Assembly (NCBI RefSeq): GCF_030068605.1 | Contig: NZ_JASJOU010000019.1 | Coordinates: 62,001-126,000, forward strand | DNA from: Xanthocytophaga agilis | GTDB taxonomy: Bacteria; Bacteroidota; Bacteroidia; Cytophagales; 172606-1 | Reading direction: 5' to 3' | DNA: 64,000 bases | In this document: one piece after another, positions 28,032-37,194 of the stretch | How positions within the stretch are numbered: the first letter of the stretch is position 1 | How the letters are laid out: every line of letters begins with the position of its first letter | Notes under the pieces: generated by a model | The model's input: only the letters and a program-made list of their open reading frames with translations | Told to the model about the DNA's origin: nothing | Database searches by the model: none | Translations under genes and position numbers: made by a program

Positions 28032-28152
28032 TTAGTAATAGAATACGTTTACCCAAAAGAAGTTTTTGCACCAATAACGTAATACTTAATAAAGAATTAA
28101 TTCAAACCATATTCAATTCTGTTTTAATTTGCTGCAAAAACCAACAAACCCA

Positions 28153-29802
28153 ATGAAAAAAATACTAATCCTACTGCTTGTCACACTTTCTTTACAGGCA
28201 CAACATAAATCTGCAAAGAAATCTCCAGCGATAAGCAAAGCTACCACCAGCTCACAGCCTAAGCTGGTAATTGGTATTGTAGTAGATCAGATGAGTTATG
28301 ATTTTCTGATCCGTTATAACAGTAAATTTAGTGAAGGTGGATTTAAAAGGTTGGTACGTGAAGGATTTTCCTGTAAAAATGCTCACTACAATTATGTACC
28401 TACCTATACTGCTCCAGGTCATACATGTGTATATACAGGTTCTGTTCCAGCTATTCATGGTATAGCTGGTAATGAATGGTTTGATCAGCGCACAGGCAAA
28501 GTGGTATATTGCACAGAAGATAGTACAGCACATACTATAGGCAGTGAATCTCAGGCAGGTCTGATGTCCCCACGTAATTTGCTGGTAACTACAATTACAG
28601 ACCAGTTACGTTTGTCAAACAATATGCAGTCCAAGGTTGTCGGCATAGCGTTGAAAGATCGGGGAGCAATTCTGCCTGCCGGGCATCTTGCCAATGCAGC
28701 CTATTGGTTTGATTCGTTCAGCGGTAACTGGATTACAAGTGATTATTACATGAAGCAGCTACCAGAATGGGTACAACAGTTTAATGGGCAGAAGCTGGCA
28801 GCTAAATATCTTTCTCAGGTATGGACGCCTCTCCTAAATGCAGCTCAATATAGTGAAAGTACACCCGATGATCAGGCTCATGAGGGTCGTTTCCGGAACG
28901 AAACAAGCTCTTCTTTTCCCCATGACCTGCCTAAGTTAAGAACAGCCGATTTTGAATTAATTCGTTCTACACCATCAGGAAATACAATCACGAAAGACTT
29001 TGCACTGGCTGCTATAAAAGGAGAAAATCTGGGTAAAGGCAAAGTAACCGATTTTCTGACAGTTAGCTTCTCTTCTACAGACTATGTTGGACATCAATAT
29101 GGACCATATGCCATCGAGACAGAAGACACCTATCTTCGTCTGGATCGCGATATTGCCGAATTACTAACTTACCTGGATACCTACATCGGAAAAAACAACG
29201 TACTGGTATTTTTGAGTGCAGATCATGCGGTTGCTCCTGCAGCAGAACACATGACAAAAATGAATATTCCAGCAGGAGTATTTGATGGCAGAAGCATGCT
29301 TACCAACCTGAAAAAACAACTGAATACACAATTTGGCGAAGGTGACTGGATACGTAGTTACGAAAACAATCAACTGTATCTAAACTATACTTTGCTACAA
29401 CAAAAAGGAAAAACAGTTGAAGACATTTATGAAAGCATCACACCTTCCCTTCTGCAATTAAATGGGGTGGCAAATGTGATCAATCTTCACGAAATCAATG
29501 AAAGTATTCTGCCTGAGCATTTTATCAAAATGATCAAGAATGGTATACATCGTAAACGTTCTGGAGATATCTACATTGCGCTGGAGCCTAACTGGTTTGA
29601 AGGTCGCAAACAAGGTACTACACATGGTTCATTTTATGCCTATGATACGCATGTACCTGTGATCTTTTATGGAGGCCCAGTAAAACATGGCAGCAGCATA
29701 GATGAAGTTTTTGTAACGGATATATCTGCCACAATAGCCCAACTGCTCAATATTATGGAACCTAGTGGTTGTATTGGCAAACCGATCCCTGTAGGAAAAT
29801 AA
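28153..29802 (+). CDS. PafA-type alkaline phosphatase (phosphate monoesterase)
   Basis: A 549-residue exported metal-dependent phosphatase. The ATG at 28153 gives the signal peptide MKKILILLLVTLSLQAQ; an earlier in-frame start adds eight residues. Alkaline-phosphatase-superfamily motifs are GIVVDQMSYDFL (metal Asp), YVPTYTAPGHTCVYTGS with the nucleophilic Thr, GNEWFDQ, the KDR pair in ALKDRGAI matching the Lys/Arg signature of PafA monoesterases, VSFSSTDYVGHQYGP, FLSADHAVAP and GTTHGSFY. It should release phosphate from organic phosphomonoesters in the periplasm. It precedes the alpha-2-macroglobulin-like gene by 104 bases with a hairpin in between. Confidence 0.88.
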   Translation: MKKILILLLVTLSLQAQHKSAKKSPAISKATTSSQPKLVIGIVVDQMSYDFLIRYNSKFSEGGFKRLVREGFSCKNAHYNYVPTYTAPGHTCVYTGSVPAIHGIAGNEWFDQRTGKVVYCTEDSTAHTIGSESQAGLMSPRNLLVTTITDQLRLSNNMQSKVVGIALKDRGAILPAGHLANAAYWFDSFSGNWITSDYYMKQLPEWVQQFNGQKLAAKYLSQVWTPLLNAAQYSESTPDDQAHEGRFRNETSSSFPHDLPKLRTADFELIRSTPSGNTITKDFALAAIKGENLGKGKVTDFLTVSFSSTDYVGHQYGPYAIETEDTYLRLDRDIAELLTYLDTYIGKNNVLVFLSADHAVAPAAEHMTKMNIPAGVFDGRSMLTNLKKQLNTQFGEGDWIRSYENNQLYLNYTLLQQKGKTVEDIYESITPSLLQLNGVANVINLHEINESILPEHFIKMIKNGIHRKRSGDIYIALEPNWFEGRKQGTTHGSFYAYDTHVPVIFYGGPVKHGSSIDEVFVTDISATIAQLLNIMEPSGCIGKPIPVGK

Positions 29803-29906: not shown

Positions 29907-32900
29907 ATGAAAACACTTTTTCTACTCCCTTTTTTTGTTTTTCTCTCCTTTATATCAATAGGCCAGAGCTTAGTCCATAGCCGGACAACAAGCTTCTATA
30001 CGTATGTTTTTCAGATTACTAATACAGAAGCTCGTACCATTTATAAGAAAGATTTATCATCTGTCACAGACAAATTCTTTCACACTGTTATAGATTCCTT
30101 TCAAACAGACAAAGCATACACTCGTACACTTCCACAAGGCCATTATCTGTTGGCGTATGCTTCAGAAGATCGGTTGGTTTATGAATTAAAATCAGTGGGA
30201 CAGTTACAGGTAAAGCTTCTGAATAATAAAAATGATTTAGCCATCCATCTGCATGACTCGTTAGGCAATCGTATTTCTACCGCCAATGTGTTTCTTAAAA
30301 AACATAAGATTTCGTTTGATACCAAAACACAGTCATATCGTATTCGAAATACTAATCGGAAAGGGTTTCTGGCTATTGACTATAAAGGATTTACTTCCTA
30401 TACATCGGTCACCACTCAATATGGTAGTAACCACTTAGCAAATACTATGCGTAGGGTCTTTTTGGGACGGCCCGGATTAGGGTATGTAACCATGCCCTTT
30501 TACCAGGTTTATGCATCTGTCAGAAGTGGTTATCCCCAAGGCTGGATTAAGGACGTAACACATCTGTTTGATGGAGCCTGGTGGGAAACAAATTTTTCCG
30601 GCTTTCAGAGAGATGTTAGAGTTGCCCGACGTCACCAGGGACTAGTTATCTTCAATAAACCTCGTTACAGAGCTGGAGAAACGGTTCGATTGAAAGCATT
30701 TATTCGTAGAAGAAGGTCAGGACATCCTATCCATAAAGAACTGGAGGCATGGCTTTACAAAGGACATACACAGGAAAAGCAAATTAAATTAGGTATTATA
30801 CGACCTTATCAACCTGGCTTATATGAGTTTTCATTTATTCTTGTAGATAGCCTGCGTATAAAGTTAGGCACTACCTGTCAGGTTATTTTCAAGGATAAAA
30901 AAGAGGGAGAATATGTGACAGGAAATTTCACCTATGAAGATTATGAACTGAAGTCCAACACATTTACAATCCGTAGTGATAAAAAAGAATATACTACTGG
31001 TGAGAAAATACAGCTTTTTGCCAGAGGAACAGATGAAAATGAGTTGAATGTAATGGACGCCCGTGTGCAACTCAGACTCTATCCCCAAAACACAGGAAAA
31101 TTTCCTCAATCTCAGGTGATTGTTCCTGATACAATCTGGAAGCAGGATCAGAAACTGGATGCAACAAGCGAAACCCGAATCATAGTACCCGACTCTATTT
31201 TTCCCAATGCCACGATACAATACCAACTGGAGGCGACATTTCTTAATAGCAACAACGAACGTCACAACCACACACTAACATTTAGCCGAACCTATAGTTC
31301 TTCCACTTTAAAATTGTCTATACAAAATGATTCACTGGTTGCGGATTATCTGGTAGCAGGAAAGTCCCAATCCCATCAGGCGATGCTTACTTTATATGCA
31401 GAGGATGATGAAGAAGGTAAAATCGTACACAAAGATGTTTCTTTACCTTACAAAGAACTTGTCAATCCCTATACTAAAACCTATTCACTGGAAGATTCCT
31501 CTCAAAGTGTATCCTTAGAACTGCAATCTCAATCTTCCGGTTTCCAGATCTTTACAAACAGAACAATTGACTCTGTATCAGTTCAGATAGTTAACCCCAA
31601 ACACCTTCCATTCTGGTATACACTCCATCATAAAAACAAACGACTCACTTCCGGACAAGACCATACAGACTTACAGATTAAACGTAAAGCGTCACTTCGT
31701 CAAAACTACTCTGCGTCCGTACAATACATCTGGAACAATAAGGTATATGAGAATGAGTATGAAATACCATTGGCAAATAAACAATTACAGATTGAAACTA
31801 CTCAACCTGCTACCATATCTCCTGGGCAGGCTATTCCTATACGTGTGAGTGTACGGGATATCAAAGGCAAGCCTGTTGCTAATGCTGATATGACAGCCTA
31901 TGGGATTACGCGCAAATTTACAGAACTAAGAACTCCCAATATACCTGATTTCAGCAAACGTTATCATAGCCGTAAAATCAAAAATAGCTTTCAATTAAGA
32001 AATAAGTTTGAGGGTAACCAGGCAGAAACCAATCGCAAATTGCAATGGAATCGCTGGCATAAAGAGATGGGGTTGGATAGCCTCGCCTATTTTCAGTTTC
32101 TCTATCCCAAAAACGGTATCTATAAACAATATCTGTCAATGCCAAACCTCATGACTCAAATAGCTCCATTTGTAGTAATAGATGGCAAAATCCAGCAAAT
32201 TCACTTGCTGTTTATTGATGAACAACCTGTCTATTTTCAGGTGGCAGATGTAGGTCAGCGGTATAGCTTTCATGTTGACTCAGGATATCATCACATAAAG
32301 ATCCGTACTCAAACCTTACAAATAAACTTGGATAGCATATATCTGAAACCACACCATAAATTAATTCTTAGTATTGACCCAAAAAGCTTCTACAAACCTA
32401 AAAAAGGAGAAAAGGCAGAACCTTTTATCCGAAATACATCCACTACACTTCAAAAACAAACTCAGATAGACACTCTTAAACCCTACCTGTCTTCAACAGA
32501 GCTTGCAGTGCTCAATCAATATCTGATGCCAGTTAAACAAAACTACTATTTTGGGAACGATTATGTATACATTCATCAGGATAAACAAATATTCACTCTT
32601 CATGGACCTTTTCAAAGTAGGTCTTCCTATTTCATTGGCCCTGTAAAACCAAATCTGACTCATTTTGTATCGAAGAACTCATTTTCTACAGACTTTATCT
32701 TTGAGCCCTCGTTTGAATACGACTTTCAACCTCAGCTACTCAAACTACGTACATGGACTGGTTTTAAAGACTTATTCTTAGCCAATAACAACATTAGTAA
32801 GCCTAACTTCGCAGAAAGAGCATGGACTGTGGAGGAAATAGATTCACTTACCAAAGCCTATCAGGCAGTTCCCTCCTATCCTACTGAATACTATAATAAT

Positions 32901-35900
32901 CCAAATCATACTACTTCCGGACATGGGAAACTGGAAATACGATATCTACAAACAACTAAAAAGCAAAAAATCATCCGGTATTTTGTCTTATATCAGGAGA
33001 ACAATCCATTGTTCTTCCGCATATACCCGTCTTATTCCCAGCTAATGCATGATATGGAAGCAGGTACTTATTGTATGGTAATTCTTCTGGATAAGAATGA
33101 ATATCTAATGGCATCGCCCATCTATATTCAGAAAAACGCGACAACCTATTATCAACCTGATTGGAATGCTGTTCTACCAGCAGATAATTACAGCAATAAT
33201 CTTTTTGAACAGATAAAAAAATCTGTACAGGTTAAAATAGATCTTGCTTACCAATTACAGGACAATAAGCCTGTCATAAAATCCTATTATCCATCTCAGG
33301 TTTCCTCTGAAGGCTTTACACATTATGTACAAGGCAAAATACTGGATGAAACTGGTTCACCCCTGCCAGGAGTATCTGTATCTGTAAAAAACACAAATCG
33401 TGGTACAGTTAGTGACACCAATGGGTTTTATAAACTGTATGTCCCAGCAGATGGGATTCTAACCTTTTCTTTCATAGGATATATGACAGAAGAAACCCCA
33501 ATTCACAATCGCACTGTGATAGATGTCCAATTAGTGGCAGATGTAAAAGCATTGCAGGAAGTAGTAGTCATAGGTTATGGGACGCAACAAAAAAAATCCA
33601 TCACAGGTGCTATCTCAACAATAAATCAATCTTTGCAAGGTAGGATTGCAGGTGTGATTATTAAGGAAGATAAACGCATTCGAATAAGAGGCATGTCAAG
33701 TATACCAACCACACAACGTCCGCTTATTGTTATTGATGGAATTCCCTACGATAACTTAACAGACATAGATCCTGCCCTGATTGCATCAGCAGAAATCCTT
33801 CAGGCTGATATGGCTACAGAATTGTATGGGGCAAGGGCAGCCAATGGAGTAATACTTATAACTTCTAAGCCCAATAGTGTTTTACCCAAACCCAAGGAAT
33901 CAGCTTTTCCCGAAATAACAGCCGTCCCGGCTGAAAATGCGATCCGGAGCCGATTCTCTGATTATGCGTTTTGGCAACCCAGACTTACCACAGATAAAAA
34001 AGGAGAAGTTATTTTTACAGCTGCGTTTCCAGATGATATCACCAACTGGCGTACGTTCTTTGTTGTCATGGGAAATAAAAAGCAAACTGGATTTTCAGAA
34101 AGCTCTGTCAAAGCATTTAAAAGTTTGGCAGCCACATTATCAGTTCCACGCTTTTTGGTCCAGGGTGATAGTACACAGGTGATTGGCAAGTCTCTCAATT
34201 ATACTTCAGATACCATTGCTTTACAAACGAGTTTTGAGATAAATAATAAGATCCAATCCAGAAAGCAAATACAAGCTATCAATGCTACTGTTGATTCGTT
34301 GATACTTTCAGCTACGACCTCAGATTCACTAAAGATCAAGTACTACCTGCAAAAACCAGATGGTTATACAGATGGAGAAATGCGCTCTATTCCTATATTT
34401 CCAGTAGGTGTAACAGAAACCAAAGGTCAATTCTGGAATCTGGAAAGAGACACCACCGTTCAAATGCGTTTTGATACGACTTTGGGTAAAGTAAAAATAT
34501 ACGCTCGTGCACAGGTACTGGATATCTTAGTAGAAGAGATTGAACATCTGCATCGATACGAATATCTGTGTAACGAACAAATTTCCTCTAAGATTAAAGC
34601 CTATCTCGCCAGCAAACGTATCTGTAATCAGCTACATAAATCCTTTGCATTTGATCAGGACATACAAAAACTTATCCGGAAACTGGAACAGGCACAATTA
34701 AAGGAAGGAGCATGGAGTTGGTGGAAAGAAGGACCTGTTGCTGTTTGGGTAACTACCCATGCAACAGAAGCCCTACTTGATGCACAGACAGCCGGATATA
34801 CTGTATCTTTTAACAGACAAAATCTTATCAACTATTTCACCTACCAGTTGGAAAAAGAAAAGGTATCTTTTGATGATCAGATACGCATGTTACAGATTCT
34901 CAAACGTCTTCAGGCAAACAGCAACTTTACAAAGTATATTACAGGGCTTGATATCTTCTTTATTACTAAAAAAGAGAGTATAGTAAAAAATAAACTAGGG
35001 TATCAGAAAGTAATTGAAGAACCTAAACCTTCTTTGTATCAGTATTTGCAACGAATGGCCTTACGTCAGCAATTTGGACTTGCTTACTCAACAGATACAC
35101 TGTTTCGTATCCGACAACAAACCCTATTTGGCAGTAGCTACTGGGGAGAAGTTCAATACCATCCATATTTGAATGAGATACAAACTACGCTTCTTGTATA
35201 CCGGATTCTGAAAGTACAAGGAGGGCATGAAGCAGAACTTAGTCGCATACGGAATTATTTTTTCGAGAAAAGAGCAACTGGCTACTGGCGTAATACCTAT
35301 GAGTCTTCTCAGATCATTGAAACGATCCTGGCGGATGTGTTAGGAAGTGATACCACAATACAAAAATCACAGCTAATTGTAAAGAATAGTTCGGAAAGCA
35401 AAGCTATAACCACCTTTCCATTTGAAACAGAAGTGGCAGCAAAAGAGGTTCTGACAATTCAGAAAAGTGGTACCTTACCTGTATACCTGACCAGCTACCA
35501 ACAGTTTCACAATTCCAGCCCTTCTAAAGTTGAAAAAGACTTTATAGTCAAAACCAGTTTTAAAGGAAGTGAACATACCCAACAAGTCCTTAAACAAGGA
35601 GACAAAATAACACTACATGTCACTGTCAATGTAACCAAAGATGCCGATTATGTGATGGTAGAGGTACCCATTCCGGCAGGATGTTCCTATAGTGATGAAT
35701 CCCAGAAAAGCTGGGCACAAAACTGGTATGAAACGTATCGAGAGCCATTCCGGCATAAAACTTCCATTTATTGTACCAAACTGAATAAAGGGACATACAT
35801 TTTTGATATACAACTGGTTGCCCGCTATGCAGGTGCATATACACTAAATCCGGCTAAAGCAGAACTCATGTATTTTCCAACATTCTTCGGACGAAATGAA

Positions 35901-35924
35901 TTAACAAAAATTCGGATAAAATAG
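29907..35924 (+). CDS. Alpha-2-macroglobulin-family protein with an inserted SusC-like regulatory and TonB-plug module
   Basis: A 2005-residue exported protein with signal peptide MKTLFLLPFFVFLSFISIGQ. An MG2-type domain is visible near residues 240-345 (NKPRYRAGETVRLKAFIRRR). At 1139-1218 there is a carboxypeptidase-like regulatory domain (GKILDETGSPLPGVSVSVKN), followed at about 1222-1322 by a SusC-type TonB plug (VVVIGYGTQQKKSITGA, IDGIPYDNL, LYGARAANGVILITSK). From about 1343 the A2M region begins (RFSDYAFWQPRLTTDKKGEV, FPDDITNWRT). The thioester motif CxEQ is present as CNEQ, Cys1555 and Gln1558. The C-terminus (ARYAGAYTLNPAKAELMY) resembles the last domain of bacterial YfhM-type A2M. 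No beta barrel follows the plug. Function is unproven; protease trapping is the family expectation. Confidence 0.88.
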   Translation: MKTLFLLPFFVFLSFISIGQSLVHSRTTSFYTYVFQITNTEARTIYKKDLSSVTDKFFHTVIDSFQTDKAYTRTLPQGHYLLAYASEDRLVYELKSVGQLQVKLLNNKNDLAIHLHDSLGNRISTANVFLKKHKISFDTKTQSYRIRNTNRKGFLAIDYKGFTSYTSVTTQYGSNHLANTMRRVFLGRPGLGYVTMPFYQVYASVRSGYPQGWIKDVTHLFDGAWWETNFSGFQRDVRVARRHQGLVIFNKPRYRAGETVRLKAFIRRRRSGHPIHKELEAWLYKGHTQEKQIKLGIIRPYQPGLYEFSFILVDSLRIKLGTTCQVIFKDKKEGEYVTGNFTYEDYELKSNTFTIRSDKKEYTTGEKIQLFARGTDENELNVMDARVQLRLYPQNTGKFPQSQVIVPDTIWKQDQKLDATSETRIIVPDSIFPNATIQYQLEATFLNSNNERHNHTLTFSRTYSSSTLKLSIQNDSLVADYLVAGKSQSHQAMLTLYAEDDEEGKIVHKDVSLPYKELVNPYTKTYSLEDSSQSVSLELQSQSSGFQIFTNRTIDSVSVQIVNPKHLPFWYTLHHKNKRLTSGQDHTDLQIKRKASLRQNYSASVQYIWNNKVYENEYEIPLANKQLQIETTQPATISPGQAIPIRVSVRDIKGKPVANADMTAYGITRKFTELRTPNIPDFSKRYHSRKIKNSFQLRNKFEGNQAETNRKLQWNRWHKEMGLDSLAYFQFLYPKNGIYKQYLSMPNLMTQIAPFVVIDGKIQQIHLLFIDEQPVYFQVADVGQRYSFHVDSGYHHIKIRTQTLQINLDSIYLKPHHKLILSIDPKSFYKPKKGEKAEPFIRNTSTTLQKQTQIDTLKPYLSSTELAVLNQYLMPVKQNYYFGNDYVYIHQDKQIFTLHGPFQSRSSYFIGPVKPNLTHFVSKNSFSTDFIFEPSFEYDFQPQLLKLRTWTGFKDLFLANNNISKPNFAERAWTVEEIDSLTKAYQAVPSYPTEYYNNPNHTTSGHGKLEIRYLQTTKKQKIIRYFVLYQENNPLFFRIYPSYSQLMHDMEAGTYCMVILLDKNEYLMASPIYIQKNATTYYQPDWNAVLPADNYSNNLFEQIKKSVQVKIDLAYQLQDNKPVIKSYYPSQVSSEGFTHYVQGKILDETGSPLPGVSVSVKNTNRGTVSDTNGFYKLYVPADGILTFSFIGYMTEETPIHNRTVIDVQLVADVKALQEVVVIGYGTQQKKSITGAISTINQSLQGRIAGVIIKEDKRIRIRGMSSIPTTQRPLIVIDGIPYDNLTDIDPALIASAEILQADMATELYGARAANGVILITSKPNSVLPKPKESAFPEITAVPAENAIRSRFSDYAFWQPRLTTDKKGEVIFTAAFPDDITNWRTFFVVMGNKKQTGFSESSVKAFKSLAATLSVPRFLVQGDSTQVIGKSLNYTSDTIALQTSFEINNKIQSRKQIQAINATVDSLILSATTSDSLKIKYYLQKPDGYTDGEMRSIPIFPVGVTETKGQFWNLERDTTVQMRFDTTLGKVKIYARAQVLDILVEEIEHLHRYEYLCNEQISSKIKAYLASKRICNQLHKSFAFDQDIQKLIRKLEQAQLKEGAWSWWKEGPVAVWVTTHATEALLDAQTAGYTVSFNRQNLINYFTYQLEKEKVSFDDQIRMLQILKRLQANSNFTKYITGLDIFFITKKESIVKNKLGYQKVIEEPKPSLYQYLQRMALRQQFGLAYSTDTLFRIRQQTLFGSSYWGEVQYHPYLNEIQTTLLVYRILKVQGGHEAELSRIRNYFFEKRATGYWRNTYESSQIIETILADVLGSDTTIQKSQLIVKNSSESKAITTFPFETEVAAKEVLTIQKSGTLPVYLTSYQQFHNSSPSKVEKDFIVKTSFKGSEHTQQVLKQGDKITLHVTVNVTKDADYVMVEVPIPAGCSYSDESQKSWAQNWYETYREPFRHKTSIYCTKLNKGTYIFDIQLVARYAGAYTLNPAKAELMYFPTFFGRNELTKIRIK

Positions 35925-35982
35925 GAATATGAAGGATATTATAGCATTTTAAGGGCCTATTTTGTATCTAATAAATCCTTTT

Positions 35983-37194
35983 ATGCTGAATATTCCAGAA
36001 ACTATCCATCAGTTCAATAAGGATAGAGATGCCCGTTTGCTACCCCGAAAGTATGCTCAGATGGCAGCCAACCCTCTCAGTTTTTTCAGAGGTTGCTGCC
36101 ATCTGTTTTATCACACTATTCAACAGGAATCATTCTTATACCAATCTCCAATTGTCTGGTCCTGCGGGGATCTACATCTGGAGAACTTTGGAAGCTACAA
36201 AGGACATAATTCCCTTACCTATTTTGACATCAATGACTTTGATGAGTCATTACTGGGTCCAGCTTTATGGGAATTAGTACGTATCACAACAAGTATATTC
36301 CTGGCTACAGATTTGTTGCATTTCAAACGAACAGAGCAACAACACTTTGTCAAATTATTTCTGAAACAATATACAACTACCTTACAAACAGGTAATCCCA
36401 GATTACTGGAAAGGGATTTTGCTCAAGGTCCTGTCAGAGACTTTATGAAGAAATTAAGTGGAAGAAAACAAAAAGATATCTTTAAAGGAAGAGTAAAAAA
36501 ACAGAAAGGCAAGCTGGTACTGGATACCAACTCAAAAAAGGCGTTACCGATTAATCCAATTAAGAAAGAATCTTTAATGCATGATTTGCAAAACTGGCTT
36601 GATATACATCATTATCATGGTAAGGTTCTGGATATAGCTCATCGTATTGCAGGTACAGGCAGTCTGGGAATGGAACGTTATATTGTATTGTCAGAAAGTA
36701 GTGCAAAAGACAAGAAAAAGAAATACCGTTTGTGGGATTTGAAAAAAGCTGTTCCATCAGCTACTGCCAGCTTCACAACATCACCTCAACCAAAGTGGAA
36801 TAATGAAGCACATCGTATTGTATCCATCCAGCAACGGATGCAAGCCTTTAGCCCAGCATTCCTCACAGCTATGGAGCTTGATCAAACAGCCTTTGTTTTG
36901 AAACAACTACAACCCAGTGAAGACAAAATAGATTTTGCATCATTAGGCCATAAACCCAAGAAAGTCATCAAAATATTGGAAAATATAGCCCAGTTGCTGG
37001 CATGGGCACAGATACGGAGTGGAGGAAGGCAAGGATCTTCGATAACAGACGATCTGATTACATTCTCACAGGAAAAAGGATGGCAAAAAAATCTGATGAC
37101 ATACACAGAGGACCTGTCCGAGCAGATGAATCAACATCACCAAAGTTTTACCAAAGCTCACCAGGATGGCTTCTTTATCAACAGAATAAGGTAA
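35983..37194 (+). CDS. DUF2252 family protein
   Basis: A 403-residue cytoplasmic protein of a kinase-fold family of unknown activity. Conserved segments are FFRGCCHLFYHT, WSCGDLHLENFGSYKG and TYFDINDFDESLLGPALWEL, the last two recalling the catalytic and metal-binding loops of aminoglycoside-phosphotransferase-like enzymes. RIAGTGSLGMERYIVL and a C-terminal AWAQIRSGGRQGSSI are also typical. The ATG at 35983 was preferred to one 21 bases upstream because homologues begin near there. It lies 58 bases behind the A2M gene and may be co-transcribed, with no obvious functional link. Confidence 0.85.
   Translation: MLNIPETIHQFNKDRDARLLPRKYAQMAANPLSFFRGCCHLFYHTIQQESFLYQSPIVWSCGDLHLENFGSYKGHNSLTYFDINDFDESLLGPALWELVRITTSIFLATDLLHFKRTEQQHFVKLFLKQYTTTLQTGNPRLLERDFAQGPVRDFMKKLSGRKQKDIFKGRVKKQKGKLVLDTNSKKALPINPIKKESLMHDLQNWLDIHHYHGKVLDIAHRIAGTGSLGMERYIVLSESSAKDKKKKYRLWDLKKAVPSATASFTTSPQPKWNNEAHRIVSIQQRMQAFSPAFLTAMELDQTAFVLKQLQPSEDKIDFASLGHKPKKVIKILENIAQLLAWAQIRSGGRQGSSITDDLITFSQEKGWQKNLMTYTEDLSEQMNQHHQSFTKAHQDGFFINRIR

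Follow-up and report, generated by a model that had tools for sequence, protein, structure and literature searches.

Two groups of described proteins come closest to the system reported here. Bacterial alpha-2-macroglobulins (A2Ms) are viewed as protease traps of the periplasm whose bait is disordered, and SusC/RagA proteins carry an N-terminal extension (NTE), a TonB box, and a plug together with a 22-stranded outer-membrane barrel. We analysed a gene of Xanthocytophaga agilis that joins elements of both. It lies at 29907-35924 (+) in a 64,000-nucleotide stretch of contig NZ_JASJOU010000019.1 (positions 62,001 to 126,000), which we call the window, and consists of a single 2005-codon frame with an ATG start and no internal stop. 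Like YfhM/ECAM of Escherichia coli (5a42, 4rtd) and the Salmonella A2M (4u48), its product has the A2M fold, an A2M and a bMG10 domain, a CxEQ motif, and a slot before the A2M domain. Unlike them, it has no lipobox, and an NTE-TonB box-plug module is predicted to fill the slot; the context also differs, with pbpC as the neighbor in E. coli and Phosphodiest and DUF2252 genes beside the window gene. The module has the same three elements in the same order as SusC/RagA (8aa4, 5t3r, 6sli), but the barrel is missing, the plug is about 20 residues shorter, and the module is internal to another protein.

Our best explanation, to which we assign a probability of about 0.5, is that this A2M is addressed by TonB via its bait slot, so that it would be either recruited to the uptake machinery or pulled at the slot, with the trap being reshaped. 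This reading draws on the composition of the module, on the conservation of its TonB box among relatives, and on a sister A2M family in which the plug of an outer-membrane transporter appears to reside in the A2M.

A predicted SusC-type module in the bait slot of a thioester A2M

The features of the window gene, with the basis of each in parentheses, are as follows.

29907..35924, + strand: gene for a predicted exported A2M with an NTE-TonB box-plug module, 2005 aa (frame, Pfam, NCBIfam; architecture alike in relatives)
29907..29966, + strand: signal peptide, about residues 1-20, without lipobox (by eye)
30642..30842, + strand: MG2-like domain, residues 246-312 (Pfam 1e-4, below cut-off)
32922..33155, + strand: beta domain preceding the module, residues 1006-1083, presumably of macroglobulin (MG) type (AlphaFold2 strands 201-277 of the 806-2005 model)
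33186..33260, + strand: long helix running into the module, residues about 1094-1118 (AlphaFold2 models)
33327..33500, + strand: NTE / carboxypeptidase-regulatory-like domain of SusC type, residues 1141-1198 (Pfam, AlphaFold2, Foldseek)
33552..33581, + strand: TonB box LQEVVVIGYG, residues 1216-1225 (conservation; low model confidence)
33582..33872, + strand: TonB plug, residues 1226-1322, ~20 residues short (Pfam Plug, TIGR04056, PDB SusC)
33966..34226, + strand: A2M (MG7) domain, residues 1354-1440 (Pfam PF00207, 1.8e-15)
34569..34580, + strand: thioester motif CNEQ, residues 1555-1558 (sequence; family conservation)
35529..35879, + strand: bMG10 domain, residues 1875-1991 (Pfam PF17973, 3.3e-20)

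The A2M (MG7) domain, the C-terminal MG domains, and a CxEQ motif in the helical domain, by which members of the A2M superfamily are recognized, were all present, and the CNEQ motif fell in a helical region of the AlphaFold2 model. We take the protein to be a thioester-bearing A2M, the thioester bond being a prediction from the sequence; it is also predicted to be exported and would reside in the periplasm. An earlier note on this DNA had described the intact frame with a regulatory domain, an A2M domain, and CNEQ at Cys1555-Gln1558, and the open reading frame (ORF) and Pfam agreed with it. The MG2-type sequence described there was found by Pfam at 246-312, but at 23.0 bits it stayed under the curated cut-off of 32.8. 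Searched whole against Pfam, the protein also matched CarbopepD_reg_2 at 1141-1221 (4.6e-16) and, at E<=1, neither PF07678 nor the Pfam bait-region domain.

The plug was missed by Pfam on the whole protein (E<=1) but recovered when two sub-segments were searched separately (2.5e-12 and 9.1e-12; each match above the cut-off). TIGR04056, the NCBIfam SusC model, matched 1141-1321 at 1.4e-58, and the SusC signature matched 1292-1321 at 8.7e-07. Both remained below their whole-protein cut-offs, as is expected because the protein has no barrel: the TIGR04056 alignment covers only profile positions 3-204 of 981, and no 22-stranded barrel of the SusC/RagA type was found in the protein beyond that point. 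The NTE, TonB box, and plug together matched the solved SusC 8aa4 at 7.9e-33, so that all three SusC/RagA elements were found in the module. A plug with no barrel behind it is what the earlier note had proposed, and both parts of that proposal held, the next gene encoding DUF2252 and the preceding one Phosphodiest.

The fold of the module was in part supported by prediction. AlphaFold2 modeled residues 806-2005 (60 sequences) with a mean predicted local distance difference test score (pLDDT) of 74.2 and a predicted template modeling score (pTM) of 0.50, and a Foldseek search with this model returned complement C3/C5, human A2ML1, the Salmonella A2M 4u48 (1.3e-25), and E. coli YfhM 5a42 (1.0e-24). 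The module alone (1085-1352, 76 sequences) gave a mean pLDDT of 77.0 and a pTM of 0.39, with NTE blocks at 93-98 and the second plug half at about 90. Its top Foldseek match was the SusC NTE 9hfj (2.7e-08, 0.7 A over 74 columns, 35% identity), followed by SusC 8aa4 (4.1e-04, 40% identity) and 8a9y (1.8e-03, 34% identity), each over 123 columns; their root mean square deviation of near 12 A presumably reflects a different placement of the parts. Prediction thus supports the folds of the NTE and of one half of the plug, the first plug half being supported by its sequence. The TonB box had pLDDT blocks of 31 in the longer model and 44-52 in the module model and is, on this low confidence, probably flexible. 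A chance match to the plug was ruled out by TIGR04056, Pfam Plug, the Foldseek matches to SusC structures, and the PDB SusC match.

The module lies directly N-terminal to the A2M domain. When 60 relatives were combined into a profile, matches of SusC type stopped at 511-539 and residues 726-829 of human A2M (6tav) aligned at 523-626; we take the bait region of human A2M to be residues 690-728. E. coli YfhM has Pfam A2M_BRD at 759-905 and A2M at 976-1057, and its bait residues, given as 923-942 in the part of the source available to us (PMC4498604), fall between these two domains. The domain order of YfhM and the human alignment starting from residue 726 directly after the plug place the module, as far as sequence can tell, in the bait slot, as the earlier note had it. 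The position therefore matches that of a protease-cleavable bait, but it is apparently filled by the module.

The TonB box is conserved in the window-type family

We scanned 84,980 species genomes and found 444 loci with relatives, 80 of which were kept for the family counts; 78 of these 80 had a frame of >=900 aa. The kept relatives came from groups such as Mucilaginibacter, Pedobacter, Pontibacter, Rufibacter, Chitinophaga, Marinilabilia, and Saprospiraceae, together with two metagenome-assembled genomes oddly labeled Thalassovita and Clostridiales. The closest, from Xanthocytophaga flavus, was 94% identical across the 661 aa after the plug and had the same architecture, and most of the others were 35-45% identical. 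A strong plug (E<1e-10) was found in 76 of the 78 long relatives, the remaining two (L101 and L118) having a weak one. These results rule out a frameshift or assembly artifact joining two genes, a concern raised in the earlier note, and indicate that the A2M with a SusC-type module is a stable family, as judged from the sequences. In a first ten-row alignment that included the window protein, we saw by eye that L048 and L050 keep the NTE and the box with most of the plug lost, and that L051 seems to lack the module.

A strict TonB box was present in 65/78 long relatives. In the 60-row family alignment, its positions were held by E (57/60), V (54/60), V (54/60), V (52/60), G (55/60), and Y (54/60). 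Scored as bits x occupancy, conservation was 3.91 for the thioester, 3.11 for the TonB box, 2.76 for MG10, 2.75 for MG7, and 2.51 for the TED, and 2.01 for the NTE, 1.83 and 2.26 for the plug parts, and 1.28 and 1.58 for the flanks of the TonB box, so that among the 13 scored stretches only the thioester outranked the box. The motifs RG, YG, and NGV were also retained across the relatives. All 68 full-length members, with the window protein counted among them, had the thioester motif C-[N/S]-E-Q, and one of the 68 had a lipobox-like pattern.

The plug of the window protein appears about 20 residues shorter than a SusC plug by sequence. The span from the box to YG was 88 in the window protein and had a median of 92 in the 57 measurable relatives, versus 106-111 in ordinary SusC plugs (n=4, a fifth being not measurable). 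Among eight relatives selected for long plugs, seven had spans of 108-113 (L104, L105, L107, L113, L117, L125, and L129), and the eighth, L123, was not measurable.

A sister A2M family is paired with plug-less barrels

A search of the X. agilis genome found three A2Ms in addition to that of the window. One of them (L039 3091-7752, contig C1; 1553 aa) contained MG2, a carboxypeptidase-regulatory domain, a TonB box and plug, A2M, TED, and receptor domains, and a SusC-like barrel gene lay directly upstream, 42 nt apart. TIGR04056 matched this A2M at profile positions 68-207 only and the barrel best at 190-980. It looks, from these alignments, as if the plug had moved from the barrel into the A2M. 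Such sister A2Ms, with a CFEQ thioester motif, resemble the window protein in that the bait slot carries a TonB box and a plug; they differ in being shorter (1553 aa for L039), in having a nearly full-length plug in most paired members, and in their adjoining barrel gene. Downstream in the same region (L039 3091-10767, about 265-273 kb of contig C1), we noted by eye an ECF sigma-like and a FecR-like gene.

We surveyed 61 sister contexts with a plug hidden Markov model (HMM) built from five SusC plugs of the X. agilis genome. They comprised 29/48 places of one search (own genome included), 24 more from the 45 rows of a second, and all 9 of a third, one of which was shared with the first. The first batch of second-search rows was chosen for long frames and the later batch was mostly short; the choice of long frames favors plugs, not barrels. 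Some contexts had little flanking DNA (L212, L213, and L226, <3.3 kb upstream; L218, L232, and L234, <600 nt downstream). A plug was present in the slot of 18 of the 61 A2Ms, and 15 of these 18 adjoined a SusC-like barrel gene on the same strand, upstream in 13 cases and downstream in two. None of the 43 A2Ms without an HMM-detected plug had a barrel in the stretch read; one of them, L235, had a marginal Pfam plug (24.2 versus 23.9 bits). The gap between the A2M and the barrel was 2-5 nt in nine pairs and 12, 42, 42, and 155 nt in others, and 195 and 233 nt for the downstream barrels.

The plug HMM matched none of the 15 partner barrels, and Pfam Plug matched none of the seven barrels tested. 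By one pattern, a TonB box was found in 0/15 partner barrels versus 12/15 partner A2Ms. As a control, a plug was present in every one of 16 further SusC ORFs longer than 1000 aa, which came from 14 stretches of 13 genomes. One family (f74, 199 genomes) yielded nine matches, taken unselected, and all nine were plug plus barrel. Three plug-bearing sister A2Ms had no adjoining barrel: L213 and L217, whose plugs are weak, and L222, whose plug is intact. Were intact plugs to serve barrels, a plug-less barrel would be expected elsewhere in the L222 genome, and one was present on another contig (L262; 996 aa, 9.4e-167 to the barrel profile, without plug or TonB box). No plug-less barrel was found in the genomes of L213, L217, and L235, one of which (G602) is 81% complete and another of which (G051) has one frame, L267, cut by the locus end.

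On these sequences, the sister family appears to represent a naturally split TonB-dependent transporter whose plug subunit is a macroglobulin, and the link of the A2M to an outer-membrane transporter is strongly supported there. A tether to such a transporter had been suggested for the window protein in the earlier note; the idea stands for the sister family (15/18), but no plug-less SusC-like barrel was found beside the window gene or in the 80 related loci, 22 of which have <3.3 kb on one side. A CFEQ thioester was present in 60/61 sister A2Ms. With the thioester being kept in both families (68/68 and 60/61), both probably remain covalent traps.

Two further arrangements were also seen. At L208 2623-3090, the gene for a 156-aa protein with two half-plugs is flanked by a plug-less barrel gene on one side and, on the other, by a gene that is anti-sigma-like by eye. 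In G051, an NTE-only gene (L217 7927-8313) lies upstream of an A2M with a box but a weak plug, and a SusC-like protein with a plug (L263 1498-4665) has, by eye, no TonB box, so that the TonB box is possibly supplied in trans.

The slot of the sister family holds a linker, a TonB box and plug, or a TonB C-terminal domain. No domain was detected in 38/61 slots, which were 108-204 aa long; judged by eye, the seven of these that were read look disordered and rich in charge. In 4/61 (L212, L224, L182, and L184), the slot was occupied by a TonB C-terminal domain (PF03544, 4e-19 to 1.8e-10). On a quick 61-row tree made with the slot left out and rooted at the midpoint, plug plus barrel required 4 changes versus other labeled rows, compared to a shuffled mean of 6.8, and 11 of 500 shuffles were as low. 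A 41-row clade contained 36 of the 38 linker rows and no plug plus barrel row. With such a tree and root, gain and loss are indistinguishable.

Search for a partner barrel of the window-type A2M

We looked for a barrel that the window-type plug could serve. A plug-less-barrel profile, whose matches were read in the X. agilis genome and 14 stretches, had 12 matches in the genome, 11 with a plug and one being the partner barrel of L039; the barrel searches in this genome scored 58 of 269 and 56 of 163 candidates. The SusC-like barrel matches in the 80 loci were rejected as partners, being ordinary SusC with a plug, NTE-only, or, in one case, an edge-cut piece without a visible plug (L094 3-1340). 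The 22 of these loci with <3.3 kb on one side include L104, L105, L107, L113, L117, L123, and L125, that is, seven of the eight relatives selected for long plugs.

Some Pedobacter-type loci have a 933-aa protein near the A2M. In L095 (13507-16305) it is an OMP_b-brl_3 barrel in which Pfam Plug was not detected at 0.01; a different kind of plug was visible by eye, and the barrel was not counted as a partner. Relatives of it were found near A2Ms in L098, L115, and L116, and a weaker one in L079; in L095, L098, L115, and L116 the barrel lies two to four genes downstream of the window-type A2M. The SusC-like profile can thus miss other barrels.

How TonB may act on the A2M

The plug of the window protein is shortened, no barrel of its own was found, and the TonB box is kept, which suggests an action of TonB on the protein that involves no dedicated barrel. 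Our preferred reading is a relative of the sister family that stands alone and is connected to TonB via the bait slot. TonB would bind the exposed box in the slot, a binding suggested by the sequence of the box, and would then either bring the trap to the uptake apparatus of the outer membrane or act on it mechanically, pulling the slot and changing the shape of the trap. Given the conserved box, such a TonB-docking or force-driven role is at least as likely as the protease-cleaved switch considered in the earlier note.

In the sister family, the A2M would supply in trans the plug and the TonB box that its SusC-like barrel lacks, and the products of the two genes would together make up a TonB-dependent transporter. 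Since a plug has its two ends on the periplasmic side, the A2M could sit under the barrel with its slot plug pushed up into it. A pull by TonB on the box of the A2M could then open the pore, fire the trap, or do both. We offer, as a tentative and rather doubtful extension, that the thioester macroglobulin of Bacteroidota is a detachable plug subunit of a two-gene transporter, in which TonB pulls the box once a ligand has loaded the barrel and thereby, in a single stroke, both opens the channel and triggers or resets the trap through force, not cleavage, and that the window protein is a stand-alone relative on which TonB acts without a dedicated barrel.

Several observations weigh against TonB addressing the window A2M. 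With the SusC-like barrel profile, no plug-less barrel was found in the vicinity of the window gene or at the 80 loci of relatives, 22 of which have <3.3 kb on one side. The AlphaFold2 confidence was low at the TonB box and the first plug half (pLDDT blocks 37-53), with pTM values of 0.50 and 0.39, and 13 of the 78 long relatives have no strict TonB box. The plug and barrel counts of the sister family are, from the tree and the following test, not independent: four independent pairs were available for barrel versus strong plug (3 agree, 0 oppose, 1 no difference; p 0.25, underpowered), and with the weak plugs included, on average 1.4 agreed, 0 opposed, and 2.5 showed no difference (median p 1). 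Moreover, the X. agilis genome has an NTE with an EVVV-type box in DUF4139, TonB_C, and vWA/type IX sorting tail proteins (L258 1155-2849, inserted inside the DUF4139 domain; L259 1206-2672; and L260 1587-3461, respectively). The last of these is probably out of TonB's reach, and hence a conserved box need not mean TonB binding.

Instead of acting alone, the window plug might stop an unlinked outer-membrane barrel in trans, perhaps the barrel beside the sister A2M, with its missing residues being tolerated. The sister family shows such plug/barrel pairing, including the one unlinked case (L222/L262), and non-SusC barrels would escape the profile used. This alternative gains weight from the long-plug relatives, whose SusC-like spans of 108-113 (7/8 selected) come mostly from short contigs where a linked barrel could escape, and from the one plug-less barrel in the X. 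agilis genome. However, the 11 other matches in that genome all have a plug (58 of 269 candidates scored), so do the 16/16 full-size barrels in 13 genomes, and the window plug spans 88 versus 106-111, which makes it, in our view, rather unlikely. The missing residues could also mean that the module is a fossil or neutral insert, a former plug-in-trans subunit that lost its barrel and is now a spacer or a folded protease bait. The plug is trimmed variably among the relatives and is nearly gone in L101, L118, L048, and L050, and the weak plugs of the sister family (L213, L217, and L235) coincide with the genomes in which no plug-less barrel was found (L267 frame cut; G602 81% complete). A fossil would be expected to lose its box early, though, whereas the TonB box and the RG, YG, and NGV motifs are retained across relatives mostly 35-45% identical and the plug is strong in 76/78, and we regard this explanation as improbable.

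The carriers of an NTE and box among DUF4139, TonB_C, and vWA/type IX tail proteins would fit with a promiscuous Bacteroidota domain whose role is unrelated to TonB, e.g., in folding, envelope assembly, or protein-protein contact. Deletion of the NTE of Bt1763 hurts growth and, according to its authors in the accessible part of their paper, perhaps not via transport (PMC7782687). Such a domain leaves unexplained why, in the sister family, intact plugs accompany barrels lacking both plug and box, and why TonB C-terminal domains occur in the same slot of four other sister members, and it is the least probable of the explanations considered here. We retain, at the probability given above, the reading in which TonB addresses the window A2M through its slot.

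Laboratory precedents exist for a plug supplied apart from its barrel. FhuA was reportedly made into a split transporter in the laboratory, with the plug supplied in trans, by Braun in 2003. For FpvAI, the available portion of one study describes a separately made plug that restores barrel function in the laboratory (PMC10994204); this resembles the sister family in having the plug in trans to the barrel and differs in that it is engineered and that the plug is not in a macroglobulin. In the consulted part of the Bt1763 study, VDEVVV, a motif shared with the box of the window family, was assigned as the TonB box by mutation, and the whole plug was lost from the barrel in vitro, which the authors considered probably non-physiological (PMC7782687). 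A literature search, by title and abstract start, returned no paper on an A2M with a plug or on a natural split transporter, and the part of PMC11658791 available to us says nothing on plugs supplied apart.

A plug in the slot of a macroglobulin would join two fields that have been unconnected, covalent trapping and TonB-driven transport, and would point to a possible force-triggered macroglobulin. The sister family makes it testable in nature whether a plug can function as a separate, removable body. A plug-domain annotation, moreover, does not always indicate a transporter.

Neighboring genes and other A2Ms

The same-strand neighbors of the window gene encode Phosphodiest (28129-29802) and DUF2252 (35962-37194), with gaps of about 104 and 37 nt. 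No conserved neighbor was found in the window family, the commonest neighbor family occurring in 15/80 loci (a PALP/CBS enzyme in the one scanned). By eye, similar Phosphodiest and DUF2252 genes occur in the same order at L046 (G001). An A2M at L044 3249-8363 has A2M_BRD and a carboxypeptidase-regulatory domain, without a plug before its A2M domain. The two other A2Ms of the X. agilis genome (L040 5490-11030 and L041 5536-11760) have no plug and both carry Pfam A2M_BRD, bringing the A2M genes of this genome to at least four.

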